Positions 25,280 through 35,855 of a stretch of 64,000 nt of DNA are shown here, piece by piece. The notes below the pieces were generated by a model that searched no databases, was not told where the DNA came from, and worked only from the letters and a program-made list of their open reading frames with translations. Both the position numbers and the translations under genes were made by a program. This DNA is from Pectobacterium parmentieri (GTDB taxonomy: Bacteria; Pseudomonadota; Gammaproteobacteria; Enterobacterales; Enterobacteriaceae): the NCBI RefSeq assembly GCF_001742145.1, contig NZ_CP015749.1, positions 4,774,001 through 4,838,000 of the forward strand, given 5' to 3'. The stretch's first letter is position 1; each line of letters opens with the position of its first letter.

Positions 25280-25307
25280 TTGCGGTTAAACGGATTTCTC
25301 GTATAAT
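25280..25307 (+). promoter_or_regulatory. Promoter of the tRNA-Gly genes
   Basis: TTGCGG (25280-25285) and a perfect TATAAT (25302-25307) with 16-base spacing, followed by a GC-rich discriminator GCGCACCCC. That is the pattern of a strong, stringently controlled stable-RNA promoter. The first tRNA starts 65 bases downstream. Confidence 0.75.
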
Positions 25308-25371: not shown

Positions 25372-25447
<76 letters not shown>

Positions 25448-25523: not shown

Positions 25524-25599
<76 letters not shown>

Positions 25600-25631: not shown

Positions 25632-26423
25632 TTAATCTGACTCTGGCTTTTGTAAAGCACCTTGTTCGATATTACGCGGTAAAAGCAAATCGAACAGACT
25701 GTTCAGCGGGTTTGCATTTTTTCCTGATTCACCGGTTACAAAGTTGTAATCCATTGCTATCAGATGGTTGAGCCGAGATTCGTAGTTGGCGGGAGCCTGT
25801 ACCTGTTCGATTCGCGGTAAGTCCTCGTAGTGTTTCAGAACGAGCTTGAAGAATTCTGTTTGTTTAAATTCCCCTTGATTCCATTCTTGTTTACTTTTCG
25901 CTACCACCCAATGGCTCCAAGCGCTCTCCTGTTCGTTTGATTCATGTAATGCTGCCCTGCGCTCGTTGACGGTAAAAGTATTGCTGTCGTCATAAGTAAT
26001 GAGCGCGAGCTGATCGCGAGATAGCCCTTTAAAGGGGTTTGTACCGCGGCCATTAGCGAAATCATTAGCTTGTTTGGCTCGTGCAAGCAATTCGGGATCG
26101 TCAGTGGCGGGTAATTCTTCAGCATGTGTTTTGTGGCTGTTTATGTAACTGACGCCAGCCAACTCCTGAATAACAGACTGTGCATACGATGCCAGCTCGC
26201 TACGGCTATGACTGGCATCTCTTGCTTCTGCGCGTGCTGCGGCATCACTCAACTGACGCGCCAGTGACGATACGCTGCTTTTATCTTTTGTTGCTGACTC
26301 ATTTGATGGTACAGACGATGCTGTTTTGTTTGGTGTCTCGCTGGTTGCCGCCGACGAGTTGGTTTTCGCTGTGTCTCTAACATCAATATTCGTGGTGCCA
26401 ACAAAGTTATTTAGACTAATCAT
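25632..26423 (-). CDS. Unknown protein of 263 residues
   Basis: Not recognised. The ATG at 26423 is used rather than a TTG two codons upstream. The first 70 residues are a low-complexity, Ser/Thr/Ala/Asn-rich and probably disordered leader (MISLNNFVG... to about SSVSSLARQL), without a signal peptide or membrane helix. The rest is polar and helical (YAQSVIQELAGVSYI, RDQLALITYDDSNTFTVNERRAAL, EFFKLVLKHYEDL). A disordered leader and a folded C-terminal domain are also the build of secreted effectors, but nothing else supports that role. It follows the tRNA-Gly pair in opposite orientation, at the left edge of the segment that separates those tRNAs from queG. Confidence 0.6.
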   Translation of the reverse strand: MISLNNFVGTTNIDVRDTAKTNSSAATSETPNKTASSVPSNESATKDKSSVSSLARQLSDAAARAEARDASHSRSELASYAQSVIQELAGVSYINSHKTHAEELPATDDPELLARAKQANDFANGRGTNPFKGLSRDQLALITYDDSNTFTVNERRAALHESNEQESAWSHWVVAKSKQEWNQGEFKQTEFFKLVLKHYEDLPRIEQVQAPANYESRLNHLIAMDYNFVTGESGKNANPLNSLFDLLLPRNIEQGALQKPESD

Positions 26424-26689
26424 CTTCAATTAATTTTTAAGGTGGTTATCTATATAGAATCGGCAATGATTTTAAATTACTTTAATTCTTTGTGGTTATT
26501 TGGACATGAACTTTTGGCTTTATATTAATATGTCCGTGATTATTGAAGATGTTTGATTTTATGTGGTGGGGAGTGCGGCCCTTTGTGCTGCCGCACAGCC
26601 GGAATTTGCACGCGATGTGGACTCGCTGACGATGCGAATTCACGATCGGTTTTTAGGTGGTTAAATTCGCATATTGAGGTTTATTAGGT

Positions 26690-26812: not shown

Positions 26813-29800
26813 TTAGAAACGGACATTCAGTTTCAGGTGAGCAGCATTGTCGGTAACGCCGCTACCGAATTGGCCACCATAGGATAATGACAGGTTCGCA
26901 TTATCGGTTAGTTTTTTGCCGATACCCGCTTCAACGCGTACGCTATTTTCAGCCAGTGGCGTTCCCGTCACGTTATAGTTATCAGCTCCAATGAAGTGCA
27001 GGCGTGCTGTGGGATCGATGTCGCCAAAAGCATGTCGCCAGCCGATGCTGCTATTCACTGTCCATGCGCGTTCTTGCGTGCCGAAGCTGTGTTCCAGACG
27101 TACGCCGAGGGTAGAAAAGGTGGTATCCATTTTGAGCGCTTCTCCGCCTAATGCGGCAGCACCGCCAGCTTCGTTGAAACTGTCCATTTTACTGGCGACG
27201 TGCGCTAATCTGGCGAAAGGTTCTACAGTAACTACGTTTGCATCGAATTTCATACGCGCCTCACCAAATACCTGGAGAGTGCGGGCATCCAGATCCGCTG
27301 ACAATTTCTCGTTCAGGGAACCGACGGTGACGTCGCGCTTCGCTGCGATATCGCCCCAGCTTCCCACTGTACCGAAGGTCAATCCCAACCGGTTATACGT
27401 GTAATTGGCATAAGCACCTAACTGGTAGTTGTCGACATCTGCGGAGAAACGGCGCCCATTTACGTCAAAATCTCCCTTGTCAGCTCCGGCGAAAATACCG
27501 AGCGTCATGTTATCGGACAGCGCACCATCAATGCCGAGCAGAAAACCATTGCTGCGATAGTCAGTATCGGCAGTGCCGTTAGCGCCATTCGCATCATTGC
27601 GACTCCCATAAACATTGAGCCAGACGTTATCATCATGCGTGGTACGGGCATGTTCTGTAACCGTATCGCTGACCGTCAATGCACCGCGTGTCATGGCACC
27701 AGCCAGAGAGGCATAGCCTTCACCCGATAACGCGTCAAAGGCGTTCTGTGGTACGCCTCGGTCGAGCATCGCTACTGCGTTATAAACGGCATTGCCAGTA
27801 CCTAGGGATTCTACCGCATTGGCGGTGGCTGATTGATTGGCTGTGGTAGCGACCGACGCAAATGTGATGTCGTTACGTGCGAGCTGCATCGTCACCGCAT
27901 TAGCGCTGTAACCCAGATTGGCATCGAGGAAAGCATAGCGACTCGTCACCGCACCGAAGGTGCCGGAGATACCCTTGTCTGCGGTCAGAATGGTATAGGT
28001 GGAAGCAATACGATAATCCCCATTCTGGCCGACGTGCAGCACTGAAGCATCGCCCAGTGTGGCCGTGCCTGTCACCGCGATCAGATCGCTTTCGGTCGTC
28101 TCTGGATTGACTTCAACTTCATAAATAGCCCCATTGGTTAACGTTAGATCGCCGTCCACTTTTAGTGTGCCAATCGAGTTACCGGGAGCCAGCGTACTGC
28201 CACTGGCGACGGTCAGACTGCCTATCGTGCCGCTGCCCGAAACGGTCGCGCCATCGGCCACAACGATTGAACCGCCCAGTGAGCCGTTAATTGCCAATCT
28301 GCCGTTTGTCACCTGCGTTGTGCCGGTAAAGGAAGATCCATTACCCGTATAGGTCAGCTTAGCTGCACCGTCTTTGCGCAGTGTCCCGTTACCTGAAATG
28401 TCATTCGCGAGCGTATCGTCGGTATTGATGTCAAAAGCCAACGTTGCGTTGTTGACGATAGCGCCAGTGCCGAAAGCCCGACCATTGGTGCCAACCAGCG
28501 TTCCACCTGACACGGTCGTGCCGCCACTCCAGCTATTACGTCCTGCGAGCGTGAGCTGTCCGCTACCTGACTTGGTAAAAGTGCCCGCACCTGTGATGTC
28601 GTTTAGCCAAAGGTCGGCGGCAGATAAACCGCCGTCTGCTGCGTTCATTGTCACAGAAACAGAGCTGTTGAACGCGCCGTAACCGTTTGCCGCCTTGAAT
28701 AGGTTCAATCGATCGTAACCCATCCCGTTATCCATCACGCCGCCTGATGCATTCGACGTGGTTGCCAGAATGTCGCGCTGTTGGGATGCGGTAAGGTAGG
28801 GATAGCGTGTTTCGATCAGCACTTCAGCATTTTGGGGAACAACGGCGGCAGCGCTGGTGTCGCCGATAGGCGTGAAGGCGTTCTCGAAGGTGTATTTGGC
28901 ATACAGAGCTTTATCGATTTGATATTGAGCATAGGCGGCTTCAGCATTCTTGCCGCTGGTATAGCATGCGGTGATAGTGCCCCCACATTGTCCGGCGAAG
29001 AAGTTCTGCGCCTGATCGTAGGCTTCTGCACGTAGCGTTGGGTTGGCGATGAGGTCCTGAATAGCGTAATAGGTGGCGTGCATTCGGCCGCCGATCACAT
29101 CCAGTGGAGAGTGAATGCCTGTCACGACGCGGCTGTAGCCAATCTCGCCAGCACGAAGGATCAGATCGGAATATTGTTGCGGAACGGCGTAGGCAAGACC
29201 GAAAGCGGCGAGATAGCCTGCATTAGTGTGTCCGCTAGGGAAACCGCCATCACCGTTTCCCGTTGCTGGCACGCGGGCAACGAGTGATTTTTGCAGAACC
29301 CAGCTTAGATCTTCACCGTCCAGCGTTTGGCGGAAGGGACGTGGATAGTTGTAGTTATTTTTGGCTGGCGTGGTGGAGGCTGGGTAGCGCACGGCGCTGA
29401 CGAGTTCGACGACCTTGCCCAGCCCGCTGGTGGCTGATCCAAGTCCGTTGCCGCCATCACTCACTCGACTGCTGTATGCGCGGTCTGGAATACCGTCGAC
29501 CGTTGTGAAAGCGCCTGTTTCCGTTTTCAAGATGCTGGCTAGCGGGCCAAGGCCAGCGATGACCGCGTAATTGGCATCTTGAGCATCGAATTCAAAAGCT
29601 GATATTTCTTGTGCCTGGGTGCGCGAACGGGCGATATCAATCACCGTTTGGATATTCTGTCGCAGTACGATCGCGCCAAGCGTAGTGGGTATGCCGTTAT
29701 TCCAGGCTGTACCCGCAGTCCAGAATTTGTTAAACCCTGAGAGAACATCAATTGCAGAGGCCGGTTCTGCCTCTGCGGCAGAGGCACCAAACGGTATCAA

Positions 29801-29845
29801 TGAGGCTATTGCCGTAGCCAAAAGCGCTTTAGTGGGGAATGCCAT
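26813..29845 (-). CDS. Autotransporter with an N-terminal PAP2-type acid phosphatase domain
   Basis: A 1010-residue type V secreted protein. Residues 1-23 are a signal peptide ending ASA. Residues about 60-290 are a PAP2/class A acid phosphatase domain with all three motifs: KxxxxxxRP (K162, R169, P170), PSGH (203-206) and SRxxxxxHxxxD (S238, R239, H245, D249). So the active site looks intact. Cysteines 287 and 294 may form a disulfide. Residues about 415-640 contain passenger beta-helix repeats with the typical GAGTFTKSGSGQLTLAG and SGGTTVSGGTL pattern, ending in LAPGNSIGTLKVDGDLTL. The last 270 residues are the beta-barrel, closing with LKLNVRF. The likely product is a surface-displayed phosphatase; its substrate is unknown. 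It is the main accessory gene between the tRNA-Gly pair and queG. Confidence 0.93.
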   Translation of the reverse strand: MAFPTKALLATAIASLIPFGASAAEAEPASAIDVLSGFNKFWTAGTAWNNGIPTTLGAIVLRQNIQTVIDIARSRTQAQEISAFEFDAQDANYAVIAGLGPLASILKTETGAFTTVDGIPDRAYSSRVSDGGNGLGSATSGLGKVVELVSAVRYPASTTPAKNNYNYPRPFRQTLDGEDLSWVLQKSLVARVPATGNGDGGFPSGHTNAGYLAAFGLAYAVPQQYSDLILRAGEIGYSRVVTGIHSPLDVIGGRMHATYYAIQDLIANPTLRAEAYDQAQNFFAGQCGGTITACYTSGKNAEAAYAQYQIDKALYAKYTFENAFTPIGDTSAAAVVPQNAEVLIETRYPYLTASQQRDILATTSNASGGVMDNGMGYDRLNLFKAANGYGAFNSSVSVTMNAADGGLSAADLWLNDITGAGTFTKSGSGQLTLAGRNSWSGGTTVSGGTLVGTNGRAFGTGAIVNNATLAFDINTDDTLANDISGNGTLRKDGAAKLTYTGNGSSFTGTTQVTNGRLAINGSLGGSIVVADGATVSGSGTIGSLTVASGSTLAPGNSIGTLKVDGDLTLTNGAIYEVEVNPETTESDLIAVTGTATLGDASVLHVGQNGDYRIASTYTILTADKGISGTFGAVTSRYAFLDANLGYSANAVTMQLARNDITFASVATTANQSATANAVESLGTGNAVYNAVAMLDRGVPQNAFDALSGEGYASLAGAMTRGALTVSDTVTEHARTTHDDNVWLNVYGSRNDANGANGTADTDYRSNGFLLGIDGALSDNMTLGIFAGADKGDFDVNGRRFSADVDNYQLGAYANYTYNRLGLTFGTVGSWGDIAAKRDVTVGSLNEKLSADLDARTLQVFGEARMKFDANVVTVEPFARLAHVASKMDSFNEAGGAAALGGEALKMDTTFSTLGVRLEHSFGTQERAWTVNSSIGWRHAFGDIDPTARLHFIGADNYNVTGTPLAENSVRVEAGIGKKLTDNANLSLSYGGQFGSGVTDNAAHLKLNVRF

Positions 29846-31710: not shown

Positions 31711-31820
31711 CTCAGCATTAAGTTAGGTATTACTTATTGATTCAATAAAGACAACGGATTGGTGATAACGATCACGTTTCTGTACTTTAGCCGCATGCGA
31801 AAACACATGAGGATAACGTG

Positions 31821-32384
31821 ATGTCAGTAATTAATACCCAAGTTAAACCATTCAAAAACATGGCTTTCAAAGACGGCCAATTCATTGAAGTGACTGAGAA
31901 GAACATTGAAGGCAAATGGAGCGTGTTCTTCTTCTATCCGGCAGATTTTACGTTTGTCTGCCCGACCGAACTGGGTGATGTCGCTGACTACTACGATGAA
32001 TTCCAACAGCGTGGCGTGGAAATTTACTCTGTTTCTACTGACACCCACTTCACGCACAAAGCGTGGCACAGCAGCTCTGAAACGATTGGCAAAATCAAAT
32101 ACACCATGATCGGTGACCCAACTGGTCAGTTGACGCGTAATTTTGAAAACATGCGTGAAGCAGAAGGTCTGGCCGATCGCGGTACGTTCATCGTTGACCC
32201 ACAGGGCATCATTCAGGCGGTAGAAATCACAGCTGAAGGTATTGGCCGCGATGCCTCTGACCTGCTGCGCAAAGTCAAAGCCGCTCAATACGTTGCATCT
32301 CACCCTGGCGAAGTATGCCCAGCTAAATGGAAAGAAGGCGAAGCCACGCTGGCCCCGTCTCTGGATCTGGTTGGTAAAATCTAA
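31821..32384 (+). CDS. ahpC: Alkyl hydroperoxide reductase C (2-Cys peroxiredoxin)
   Basis: Reduces hydrogen peroxide and organic hydroperoxides and is recycled by AhpF. The 187 residues carry the peroxidatic Cys47 in FTFVCPTE and the resolving cysteine in [12 protein letters not shown] stands directly before the ATG at 31821; the ATG gives the family start [13 protein letters not shown]. OxyR control is expected from other enterobacteria, but I cannot make out a clear OxyR site in the leader. Followed by ahpF through a partial terminator. Confidence 0.96.
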
Positions 32385-32513: not shown

Positions 32514-34076
32514 ATGCTCGACAATACGATGAAAGTCCAGTTGAAAGCCTATCTGGAAAAATTAACCAAACCTGTTGAGTTAATGGCGACTCTAGATGAT
32601 TCCGCTAAATCTGCGGAAGTCAGAACCTTGCTGACCGATATTGCCGAGTTGTCCGATCAGGTCAACTTTATTGAAAAGAATGATCTATCCGTCCGTAAGC
32701 CTTCGTTTCTGATTACTAACCCCGGTTCCCAAAGCGGTCCACGTTTTGCCGGTGCGCCGATGGGGCATGAATTTACCTCCCTGATTCTGGCGTTATTGCA
32801 GGTGGGTGGACATCCGTCGAAAGAAGCAAAAGAATTACTCGATCAAATCCGCAATCTTAACGGTTCGTTCCACTTTGAAACGTATTACTCGCTGTCCTGC
32901 CACAACTGCCCGGACGTGGTGCAGGCGCTGAATTTAATGGCGGTGTTGAATCCGAAGATCACCCATACCGCGATAGACGGCGGCGTGTTTCAGGATGAGA
33001 TCCAAAACCGTAATGTCATGGGTGTTCCCACCATTTTCCTGAACGGCGAACATTTCAGCCAGGGGCGGACGAGTCTTGCGGAGATTGTGGCTAAAATCGA
33101 TACCGGTGCAGGCGCTAAACAGGTTGAGAAGCTGAACCAGCGTGACGTCTATGATGTGTTAATCATCGGCAGCGGCCCGGCAGGGGCGGCAGCGGCAGTC
33201 TATTCGGCGCGTAAAGGCATCCGCACCGGTTTGGTCGGTGAACGCTTTGGCGGTCAGGTGCTGGATACCGTTGATATCGAAAACTACATTTCTGTGCCGA
33301 AAACGGAAGGTGCCAAACTGGCGACCGCACTGAAGAGCCATGTTGATGACTATGATGTTGATGTGATCGACGCGCAGAGTGCAGAAGCTTTAATTCCTGG
33401 CGGAGAGCCGGGTAAACCGCATCAGGTGATTACCGTATCCGGTGCGACGCTGAAAGCGCGGAGTGTGATCATTGCGACAGGCGCGCGTTGGAGAAACATG
33501 AATGTGCCGGGTGAAGATCAGTACCGGACGCGCGGGGTAACGTACTGCCCACACTGTGATGGTCCGCTGTTTAAAGGTAAGCACGTTGCGGTGATTGGCG
33601 GTGGAAACTCCGGCGTAGAAGCGGCTATCGATCTGGCTGGTGTGGTGAAACACGTCACGCTGCTTGAGTTTGCACCGGAGCTGAAAGCGGATTCGGTATT
33701 GCAGGAGAAGGTACGCAGCCTGCCGAACGTCGATATCATTCTGAATGCGCAAACCACAGAAGTGAAGGGCGATGGGCAGAAGGTGACGGGACTGAGCTAC
33801 AAAGATCGTGTTACCGATACGGTGCAGGATTTACCCCTGGAAGGGATCTTCGTGCAGATTGGTTTGTTGCCTAACACCCACTGGTTAGAAGGCACGGTTG
33901 CCAGAAACCGCATTGGTGAAATAGAGATCGATGCCAAGTGTGAAACTAGCGTGAAAGGGATCTTTGCTGCTGGCGACTGTACGACGGTGCCGTACAAACA
34001 GATCATTATCGCGACGGGTGAAGGAGCAAAAGCGTCCTTGAGTGCTTTTGATTACCTGATCAGAACACGGGCGTAA
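32514..34076 (+). CDS. ahpF: Alkyl hydroperoxide reductase F (NADH:peroxiredoxin reductase)
   Basis: Flavoprotein that passes electrons from NADH to AhpC. The 520 residues have the tandem thioredoxin-fold N-terminal domain with redox pair C129/C132 (SCHNCPD). A thioredoxin-reductase-like part follows with FAD motif [15 protein letters not shown], redox pair C345/C348 (CPHCDGP) and [14 protein letters not shown] for NADH. The ATG at 32514 follows AAGGACGACC. Second gene of ahpCF. Confidence 0.97.
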
Positions 34077-34573
34077 TACCGGCCTGTGGGAGAGGGGGGA
34101 TATTCACCTCTCTCCTATTACTCTGACGACAATCTTAATTTTTTGCTCGGCGATGTCTCATAAAAGAGGCGTCGCCGTCATTTCGATCGTAAAAATTAGA
34201 TCTCAGCCCTTGCCAAGTGACAATAAGAAATTCATAATGCTGGCCGCTCTATGCTGTGGCCTGTTTTTTGTTGTTTTCACAACGTCGTATTTAGAGCGCT
34301 AGCGTTACCTCAATTCACATCGTTTTTTATCAGTTAATACAAAAAATCATATTCTTCTTAACAGACTTATCCACAGGCTGCCTGTTGGTTATTTATTAAT
34401 CACCCTATATTGTTGATAAAATACAGTAGAGTATCTTATTGATATTTATTCATAAAATTTACTTATAAAACGCTATAACGATCGCTTGTACTTTTTGTGA
34501 CGGTTGATTGGCAACGACTTTTTTTATTTATTCACAGCGTGTGCGACAATGTGATGACAACCATTTGAGAGGT
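34077..34573. promoter_or_regulatory. AT-rich region with DnaA-box cluster, datA-like
   Basis: Roughly 500 bases between the convergent ahpF and queG. It contains DnaA-box-like sites all in one orientation: GTTTTCACA (34273-34281, 8 of 9), perfect TTATCCACA (34367-34375), TTATTCATA (34446-34454, 8 of 9) and TTATTCACA (34528-34536, fits TTWTNCACA). Two IHF-like sites on the minus strand (34406-34418 and 34432-34444, each 12 of 13) lie between them. E. coli datA, where IHF and DnaA promote hydrolysis of ATP-DnaA, lies between the glyVXY tRNAs and queG; this is the corresponding place. A hairpin GAGAGG/CCTCTC at 34090-34116 may end ahpF. No gene is supported. Confidence 0.6.
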
Positions 34574-35713
34574 TCACGCATCGCGCGGTAATCCTTTCTC
34601 CACTGCACGAATAAGTCGTTTTTTCTGTGTGGATTGGACGTCAATTTCCAATAATGCGCGGCGTGCTAGCTGCTGCTGAATCGCCCAGTGGATATGTTCA
34701 TCCAACAATTCGCTTTCACCCAGACGGGTTTGCAGTGCTAATACGATATTATCCTGATAGGGAGCATTCCCTAGTGCGACGGCAATATTGCGTAGCCAGC
34801 GGAGATGGCCGATGCGCCGGATCGGCGATCCTTCCGTAATCCGCAGAAATTTCTCTTCATTCCAGCCAAATAACACCAATAACTCTGGCGTATGCAGCGC
34901 GGCACGCGGGCTGAAATCAGCCTCGTCGGTGAGTTGTGAAAATCGATTCCACGGGCAAATAAGCTGACAATCATCGCAACCATAGATGCGATTGCCCATC
35001 AGCGGACGGAATTCTTCAGGTATCGGGCCTTCCAATTCGATGGTCAGGTAGGAAATACAGCGGCGAGCATCGACGGTATAAGGGGCGACAATCGCGCCTG
35101 TTGGACAGGTGGTCATGCAGGCGACACAGCGGCCACACTGTTCTTCCTGTGGTCGATCAACGGGTAGAGGCAGATCGATCAGCAGTTCACCAAGAAAGAA
35201 CCAGGAACCTGCTTCTCGGTTTAGAATTAGTGAGTGTTTACCAACCCAGCCAAGCCCGGCTTTTGCAGCCAAAGGGCGTTCCATGATCGGTGCGGAATCG
35301 ACGAATGGGCGAAAATTCAATTCACCGCAGTATTCCTGAATCTGATCGCCAAGCTTTTTCAAGCGCTGGCGTAACAGCTTGTGGTAATCACGGCCTAGCG
35401 CATAACGGCTGACGTAGCCGAGCTCTGGGTTCTTTAAGGTACTGGCGAACGCGGCTTTGGCGGGAAGATAATTCATACGAACGCTAATGACGCGCAGCGT
35501 GCCGGGCAAAAGCTCGTGCGGGCGCGCTCGTAGCATGCCATGACGCGCCATCCAGTCCATTTCCCCGTGATATTGCTTATCCAGCCAGGCTTGAAGCCGA
35601 GGTTCTTCTGCGGACAGGTCGGTGTCGCAGATGCCGACCTGCTGGAACCCCAATGCCTGTCCCCATTGTTTGATGTGTTGCGCTAATTCGTTGAGATCGT
35701 AGGGGTATGACAT
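34574..35713 (-). CDS. queG: Epoxyqueuosine reductase
   Basis: Performs the last step of queuosine synthesis in tRNA, reducing epoxyqueuosine with cobalamin and iron-sulfur clusters. The 379 residues match E. coli QueG. Two 4Fe-4S cysteine groups are visible: CGRCVACMTTCPTGAI and CDDCQLICPWN. The RRIGHLRWLRNIAVALGNA segment is HEAT-like. ATG 35713 is preferred over one four codons upstream because it gives the usual length. Divergent from nnr. Confidence 0.95.
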   Translation of the reverse strand: MSYPYDLNELAQHIKQWGQALGFQQVGICDTDLSAEEPRLQAWLDKQYHGEMDWMARHGMLRARPHELLPGTLRVISVRMNYLPAKAAFASTLKNPELGYVSRYALGRDYHKLLRQRLKKLGDQIQEYCGELNFRPFVDSAPIMERPLAAKAGLGWVGKHSLILNREAGSWFFLGELLIDLPLPVDRPQEEQCGRCVACMTTCPTGAIVAPYTVDARRCISYLTIELEGPIPEEFRPLMGNRIYGCDDCQLICPWNRFSQLTDEADFSPRAALHTPELLVLFGWNEEKFLRITEGSPIRRIGHLRWLRNIAVALGNAPYQDNIVLALQTRLGESELLDEHIHWAIQQQLARRALLEIDVQSTQKKRLIRAVEKGLPRDA

Positions 35714-35855
35714 GATGGGCCGCAAAAATAAACAAGACGTAGTGATGTTACCATATCCGCGTTGCGGAACCGATGTTTGCGCAGAAGTACGGAATGCTGG
35801 CGGTCGTTCCGGTTGCTTGCTAATTTTAAGTCATTGTAATGAAAACTAAGAGCAA

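Follow-up and report, generated by a model that had tools for sequence, protein, structure and literature searches.

How does the replication-control site datA fare, and what becomes of the transcription that enters it, when the tRNA-Gly genes adjoining it in Escherichia coli are displaced? This question is raised by a 64,000-nucleotide stretch of the Pectobacterium parmentieri genome (contig NZ_CP015749.1, positions 4,774,001 to 4,838,000; hereafter the window, whose numbering is used throughout), in which the gap between ahpF and queG was originally predicted, from its letters, to hide a datA-like cluster of DnaA boxes and IHF sites. Passages of PMC10950094 report that, in E. coli, IHF leaves datA on time only if transcripts starting at PglyVXY cross the IHF site: when PglyVXY is deleted, or a terminator is inserted upstream of the IHF-binding site (IBS), IHF is not released on schedule and initiation is delayed; they also invoke an additional, unknown factor in the datA-IHF cycle. 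Judged by its sequence, the gap beside queG holds the orthologue of E. coli datA. What is new here is a conserved predicted promoter that stands before datA where tRNA-Gly has been displaced.

The elements recognised in the gap are listed below, with offsets counted from the start of box 2 (position 0), as in the comparison with datA of E. coli MG1655.

34325 to 34354, plus strand: conserved AT-rich block just 5' of box 7, with 24 of 30 columns invariant in the same-genus alignment
34355 to 34363, plus strand: equivalent of box 7, TTCTTAACA, with two mismatches, at -12
34367 to 34375, plus strand: DnaA box 2, TTATCCACA
34406 to 34418, plus strand: second IHF-like site, TATATTGTTGATA, at +39
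34432 to 34444, plus strand: equivalent of the IBS, TATCTTATTGATA, with one mismatch to TAAnnnnTTGATW
34528 to 34536, plus strand: DnaA box 3, TTATTCACA, at +161
34540 to 34548, minus strand: degenerate equivalent of box 4, TGTCGCACA, with two mismatches

The order and orientation of boxes 7, 2 and 3 and the IHF site match those of E. coli datA, their spacing agrees to within 1 bp, and both sites adjoin the 3' end of queG. The two-mismatch box TTGTAAACA of E. coli, which descriptions of the boxes in reviews lead us to equate with box 7, also lies at -12; the E. coli IHF site TAACCTATTGATA has the same offset, +65, as the IBS equivalent of the window, and box 3 of E. coli (TTATTCACA) is at +162. 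The box 4 equivalent starts 12 bp after the start of box 3, in the register of E. coli TCATCCACA, presumably the stimulatory box 4 of that species. Measured between the outer ends of boxes 7 and 3, the window site spans 182 bp; the minimal E. coli datA is given as 183 bp, or 262 bp in another passage, in sections of one review (PMC5742627) and as 187 bp in a section of a second (PMC10380432). According to passages of three reviews (PMC5742627, PMC10380432, PMC5835720), the essential parts of E. coli datA are boxes 2, 3 and 7 and the IBS, the essential boxes pointing in the same direction; boxes 7, 2 and 3 of the window likewise share one orientation and the E. coli order. Boxes 2 and 3 are the high-affinity ones and box 7 is weak. 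DARS1 and DARS2 are also non-coding DnaA-box sites controlling the nucleotide state of DnaA, as described in parts of PMC5742627 and PMC8682772; the window site differs from them and resembles datA in that its essential boxes share a single direction. The genome encodes a DnaA 93% identical to that of E. coli and an IHF-alpha that scores above the cut-off of model TIGR00987.

E. coli has nothing equivalent to the second IHF-like site at this offset. In 18 of 24 same-genus genomes the site has one mismatch or none; together with the degenerate box 4, it sets the window's datA apart from that of E. coli. Because of this site at +39, the use of a single IHF site as a hallmark of datA is uncertain here. 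It might make a two-IHF form of datA.

Within the genus, column counts refer to an alignment of 24 genomes, that of the window included. All nine columns of box 2 are invariant, as are 8/9 for box 7, 8/9 for box 3 and 12/13 for the IBS equivalent, compared with 11/30 and 47/73 in two spacers. All four elements, box 7 taking the form TT[C/T]TTAACA, are kept in 25/25 same-genus genomes. In the twenty-fifth of these (G021), which has a broken queG, the IHF site is at +65 and box 3 at +159, and the promoter described below is present as well. In a survey of 70 genera of the family, one genome each, 69 carry box 2 without a mismatch and 64 do so for box 3, which is at +161 in 48. An IHF site with no more than two mismatches lies between +64 and +67 in 62 of the 70, and at exactly +65 in 49; among shuffled spacers, 135 of 2,760 have one in the wider interval. 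A sequence resembling box 7, with T as its second letter and ACA at its end, occurs in 56. One genus (g90, locus L063) has queG yet no datA; for locus L095 the automatic count took the wrong box 2, its boxes being exact and 161 bp apart. Of 80 named loci, 79 have an exact box 2, 78 an exact box 3, 79 the IHF site and 47 a box-7-like sequence; the one locus lacking box 2 is on a contig that stops 142 bases past queG. The parts of datA kept most strictly across the family are thus box 2, box 3, their spacing and the IHF site, while the others vary. Within E. coli, datA is reported as conserved in 59 genomes in part of PMC4585315, and a portion of PMC8682772 describes DARS2 as conserved across gamma-proteobacteria, including Pectobacterium (as Erwinia carotovora).

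Could the cluster be a chance collection of AT-rich 9-mers? The original prediction had named four DnaA-box-like 9-mers and two IHF-like 13-mers, and direct reading places all six where it had put them. As a conserved site, the four boxes hold up only in part: those at 34367 and 34528 are retained, whereas GTTTTCACA at 34273 (1/9 columns invariant, mean identity 0.74) and TTATTCATA at 34446 (6/9, mean identity 0.89) behave like spacer, which is the one point in favour of chance. The pair of IHF sites divides in the same manner, 34432-34444 occupying the E. coli position and 34406-34418 lacking an equivalent there. The weak box 7 and the predicted promoter had both been overlooked. Exact matches to TTWTNCACA number nine in the window, against a shuffle mean of 4.7, a total reached by 6 of 100 shuffles; two of the nine are those at datA, 161 bp apart and in the same orientation. 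The pattern TTATNCACA-N150-155-TTATNCACA occurs once in the 5,030,841-base genome, at the datA site, and its backwards-read version does not occur at all. Across the family, TTATCCACA-N150-155-TTATNCACA is matched in 145 of 246 genomes (backwards control 0), once per genome except in G163, where a second match is a tandem-repeat artefact; G027 (locus L030) also has the pattern. The 101 genomes without a match include 84 of 2.4 Mb or smaller, and queG was detected in 155 of the 246. Outside the GTDB family, the two-box pattern appears in 4 of 138 genomes, with an IHF-like site at +65 only in G038. With a pattern unique in the genome and a spacing maintained throughout the family, we reject the chance explanation, whose probability we regard as negligible. 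Two of the outcomes named in advance as refuting the prediction were looked for and did not arise, since the boxes are conserved in relatives and the box pair is unique in the genome; the claim of a conserved datA-like site is supported by the E. coli spacing and by the genus and family counts.

The conservation of datA is not due to queG. In two g136 genomes (L211, L212), queG is matched neither genome-wide nor in the locus stretch, yet both carry boxes 161 bp apart near nnr and keep the promoter and datA; datA is also kept in G078 (L213), where queG is only a remnant, and in G021 (L218), where queG contains stops. A further alternative is that the site is a DnaA titration sink only, devoid of hydrolysis activity. 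E. coli datA was originally described as a titration locus (as recounted in a passage of PMC5835720); titration alone has no obvious need for an IHF site near +65 or for a +161 spacing held across the family, and we consider this alternative very unlikely.

If the site is datA, what transcribes it? The features that bear on this question lie between ahpF and box 7.

34210 to 34238, plus strand: predicted sigma-70 promoter of tRNA type directed toward datA, with -35 TTGCCA (34210-34215), a 17-bp spacer and -10 CATAAT (34233-34238)
34239 to 34246, plus strand: G+C-rich discriminator GCTGGCCG, 3' of the -10
34242 to 34261, plus strand: terminator-like hairpin at the predicted start point

With the tRNA genes gone, an input of PglyVXY type would be expected to be lost; instead, a tRNA-type promoter stands before datA. 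It shares the TTGC -35 and the G+C-rich discriminator with enterobacterial tRNA promoters (of the glyVXY and CTTGCCA-17-CATAAT types) and differs from them in that the next feature is datA, no tRNA lying behind it. E. coli datA, by contrast, has the adjacent PglyVXY and not a predicted stand-alone promoter. The form TTGC[C/T]A-N17-CATAAT is found in 25/25 same-genus genomes, with 6/6 columns of the -10 and 5/6 of the -35 invariant; of 237 equally arranged hexamer sets from the non-coding gap, all but 4 are less conserved than these two together. Similarly built conserved blocks precede datA in Xenorhabdus, Brenneria and Symbiopectobacterium-type loci. Of the three genomic copies of CTTGCCA-N17-CATAAT, one precedes a solo tRNA-Gly, one a tRNA-Val and one datA. 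The two tRNA copies (L196 and L197, at 1155766 and 1171312 of the genome) are 15.5 kb apart, and their neighbourhood, with short 'tagtccat'-like or 'ggactt' repeats, resembles an island bounded by tRNAs.

This arrangement extends beyond Pectobacterium. In 50 of the 70 family genera, the end of a tRNA-Gly is no more than 150 bp from box 2. When loci are called adjacent if a tRNA-Gly ends at most 300 bp from box 2, and displaced if it is farther away or lacking in the locus stretch, the loci with box 2 comprise 94 adjacent and 72 displaced ones, the latter including five duplicate contigs (L039/L174, L083/L126, L144/L216, L138/L217 and L125/L215). A promoter pattern (TTGN3-N17-[CTG]A[CTG]AAT followed by at least 5/8 G/C, counted from -320 to -60 of box 2) matched 61/72 displaced loci, or 56/67 minus duplicates, representing 17 of 23 genus groups, and 0/72 on the minus strand. 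Control windows away from tRNAs gave 6/5,345 on the plus and 16/5,345 on the minus strand, a control including windows before tRNAs 27/5,597, and mononucleotide shuffles 4/3,600. Weaker variants (CATCAT, CATTAT) occur in g5 (two loci), and one of two g113 loci misses the pattern (TAAAAT); in the displaced-locus count no promoter pattern was seen in g4 (three loci), g58, g132, g161 (two loci) and g166. A tree quickly built from 399 queG bases in 148 loci has nine adjacent/displaced changes, with the promoter in 7/9 displaced clades; it serves as a rough count only, because Xenorhabdus was joined with Pectobacterium.

Traces of tRNA genes in some lineages bear on the origin of this promoter. A 3' piece of tRNA-Gly lies between the promoter and datA in Serratia sp. 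Ag1 (L145; score 31, maximum of 12 shuffles 18) and in g79 (L057; 29 against 20), and similar pieces in g156 score 17 against 16 (L092) and 20 against 15 (L202). A complete tRNA-Gly, with the promoter TTGTCA-17-CATAAT, adjoins datA in two loci of Dickeya (L154, L167). The remnants and the Dickeya arrangement suggest that the tRNA gene decayed or moved while the promoter stayed; insertions would have separated tRNA-Gly from datA, the promoter of a former tRNA-Gly copy being kept. A match of CTTGCCAAG to the tRNA-Gly anticodon loop stands clearly above 12 shuffles in L078, L081 and L126, and slightly in L036; L073 scores a single point above its shuffles, in the T arm. We do not claim an anticodon-loop origin of the -35 on this basis, the Xenorhabdus and tRNA-Val promoters lacking the extended match.

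The same facts can be read otherwise: the promoter could belong to a small RNA or a peptide gene that has escaped recognition within the 110 bases before datA, or be a decaying tRNA promoter, datA being ordinary and unconnected with it. The other copies of the exact motif do precede tRNA genes, tRNA remnants persist in three lineages, and 34282-34354 is fairly conserved (mean identity 0.90 in the same-genus alignment). However, no Rfam family reaches the gathering threshold between promoter and datA, and 34247-34324 (20/78 columns invariant) is less conserved than the promoter block (28/43). The promoter type moreover recurs in 17/23 displaced groups, while the content between promoter and datA varies between aligned groups. 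We regard this explanation as unlikely. The main text of a P. atrosepticum small-RNA paper (PMC4710047) contains no mention of ahpF, queG, yjeS, ahpC, ECA39 or ECA40.

Transcription might also arrive from farther upstream, where the surroundings of datA are as follows.

25280 to 25307, plus strand: predicted promoter of the tRNA-Gly pair, TTGCGG-16-TATAAT
25372 to 25447, plus strand: tRNA-Gly(GCC)
25524 to 25599, plus strand: tRNA-Gly(GCC)
31818 to 32384, plus strand: ahpC (Pfam AhpC-TSA; gene name by homology)
32514 to 34076, plus strand: ahpF (Pfam Pyr_redox_2 and Thioredoxin_3; gene name by homology)
34086 to 34118, plus strand: hairpin directly 3' of ahpF, lacking a clear T run
34574 to 35725, minus strand: queG (Pfam QueG_DUF1730)

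The original prediction had put about 9 kb of other genes between the tRNAs and queG; the second tRNA-Gly ends at 25599, 8.8 kb from box 2 and on the same side of datA as in E. coli. Between them, unlike in E. coli, lie a protein without a Pfam match, an autotransporter with a PAP2 domain, a DUF4153 protein, ahpC and ahpF. Relatives of the first (265 aa, 25632-26429, minus strand) occur upstream of datA in L115, L116 and L118, in g79 (L057, 49% identity) and in two Dickeya loci (41-42%). The autotransporter (26813-29845, minus strand), which carries a PAP2 phosphatase domain, was found elsewhere only in P. polonicum (L115, 95%) among the stretches compared. The datA site is 0.75 Mb from dnaA in the 5.03-Mb genome (0.51 Mb in E. 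coli).

Since ahpF is the final gene ahead of datA and lies on the strand of the predicted promoter, read-through from ahpCF, with no dedicated promoter, could drive datA transcription and link replication control to peroxide stress. Both genes aim at datA and end beside it in loci of Pectobacterium, g125 and Brenneria, 18 distinct ones in all (L083 and L126 counted as one contig). In the promoterless displaced groups g4, g132, g161 and g166, the last open reading frame (ORF) called likewise heads toward datA and ends shortly before it, and this orientation suggests that transcription into datA may come from that ORF in these groups. Against read-through in the window stand the strong hairpin 3' of ahpF (dG -24.5 kcal/mol for 34074-34150, z -3.2) and the terminator-like hairpin at 34242, which may end ahpCF transcripts ahead of datA; the exact sequence of either hairpin is not conserved, the former having 0/33 invariant columns. 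That ahpCF alone supplies the transcription appears to us highly doubtful.

We thus favour a dedicated input. By analogy with E. coli, the datA orthologue likely promotes hydrolysis of DnaA-ATP after initiation (the DDAH activity of E. coli datA), and the tRNA-type promoter would replace tRNA-Gly read-through. DnaA and IHF would bind the site as in E. coli; IHF at 34432 would bend it so that DnaA at boxes 7 and 2 meets DnaA at box 3, and this contact would be followed by hydrolysis of the DnaA-bound ATP. Transcription from 34210-34238 through the IHF site may then help to evict IHF before initiation and set the timing, as PglyVXY does. A broader proposal, which we advance only tentatively and hold to be somewhat less probable than its opposite, is that in enterobacteria the transcription running through datA is an ancient input to replication control, maintained by selection. 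A tRNA-type promoter would then be kept or remade when insertions displace tRNA-Gly, forming a dedicated datA promoter that yields no tRNA and would place IHF eviction and the timing of DnaA inactivation directly under growth-rate control.

Several observations weigh against a promoter retained for datA, or against full equivalence with the E. coli site. A terminator-like hairpin lies at the predicted start point (34242-34271, 11/30 columns invariant), the AT-rich block by box 7 is better conserved than the promoter, box 7 itself is the more variable box family-wide, and the box 4 equivalent is degenerate, with 4/9 columns invariant. By eye, a similar AT-rich stretch lies ahead of box 7 in Brenneria and g47. 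A stem-loop over box 2, visible by eye in E. coli and in the window, did not prove general among the family sequences with the two-box pattern, and we reject it as a conserved attenuator. The window contains no detectable tRNA remnant (score 12, mean of shuffles 12.7). The survey pattern was written after several of the sequences had been read, and among the displaced loci unread when it was fixed (L199-L214) 7/13 match; only two genera were new among these, g136 matching and g58 missing. A looser pattern (spacing 16-18, looser -10, no G+C demand) matches 67/72 displaced loci against 35/72 on the other strand, and 65 against 13 when the G+C demand is restored, so that the strand contrast hinges on the strict spacer length (17 bp) and the form of the -10. 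Finally, the strict pattern is missing in 6 of the 23 displaced genus groups.

A literature search by title and abstract opening returned no paper on datA in Pectobacterium, on datA with displaced tRNA-Gly or on a promoter of datA's own, a weak negative with most subscription papers outside the search. The lineages with displaced tRNA-Gly are natural experiments on the extent to which read-through over datA, known from the tRNA operon of E. coli, is a regulatory input in its own right, and most of those examined keep a tRNA-type promoter with no tRNA gene behind it. If this promoter is active, transcription of datA would be conserved for its own sake, and the coupling of replication timing to growth would be separable from tRNA supply.
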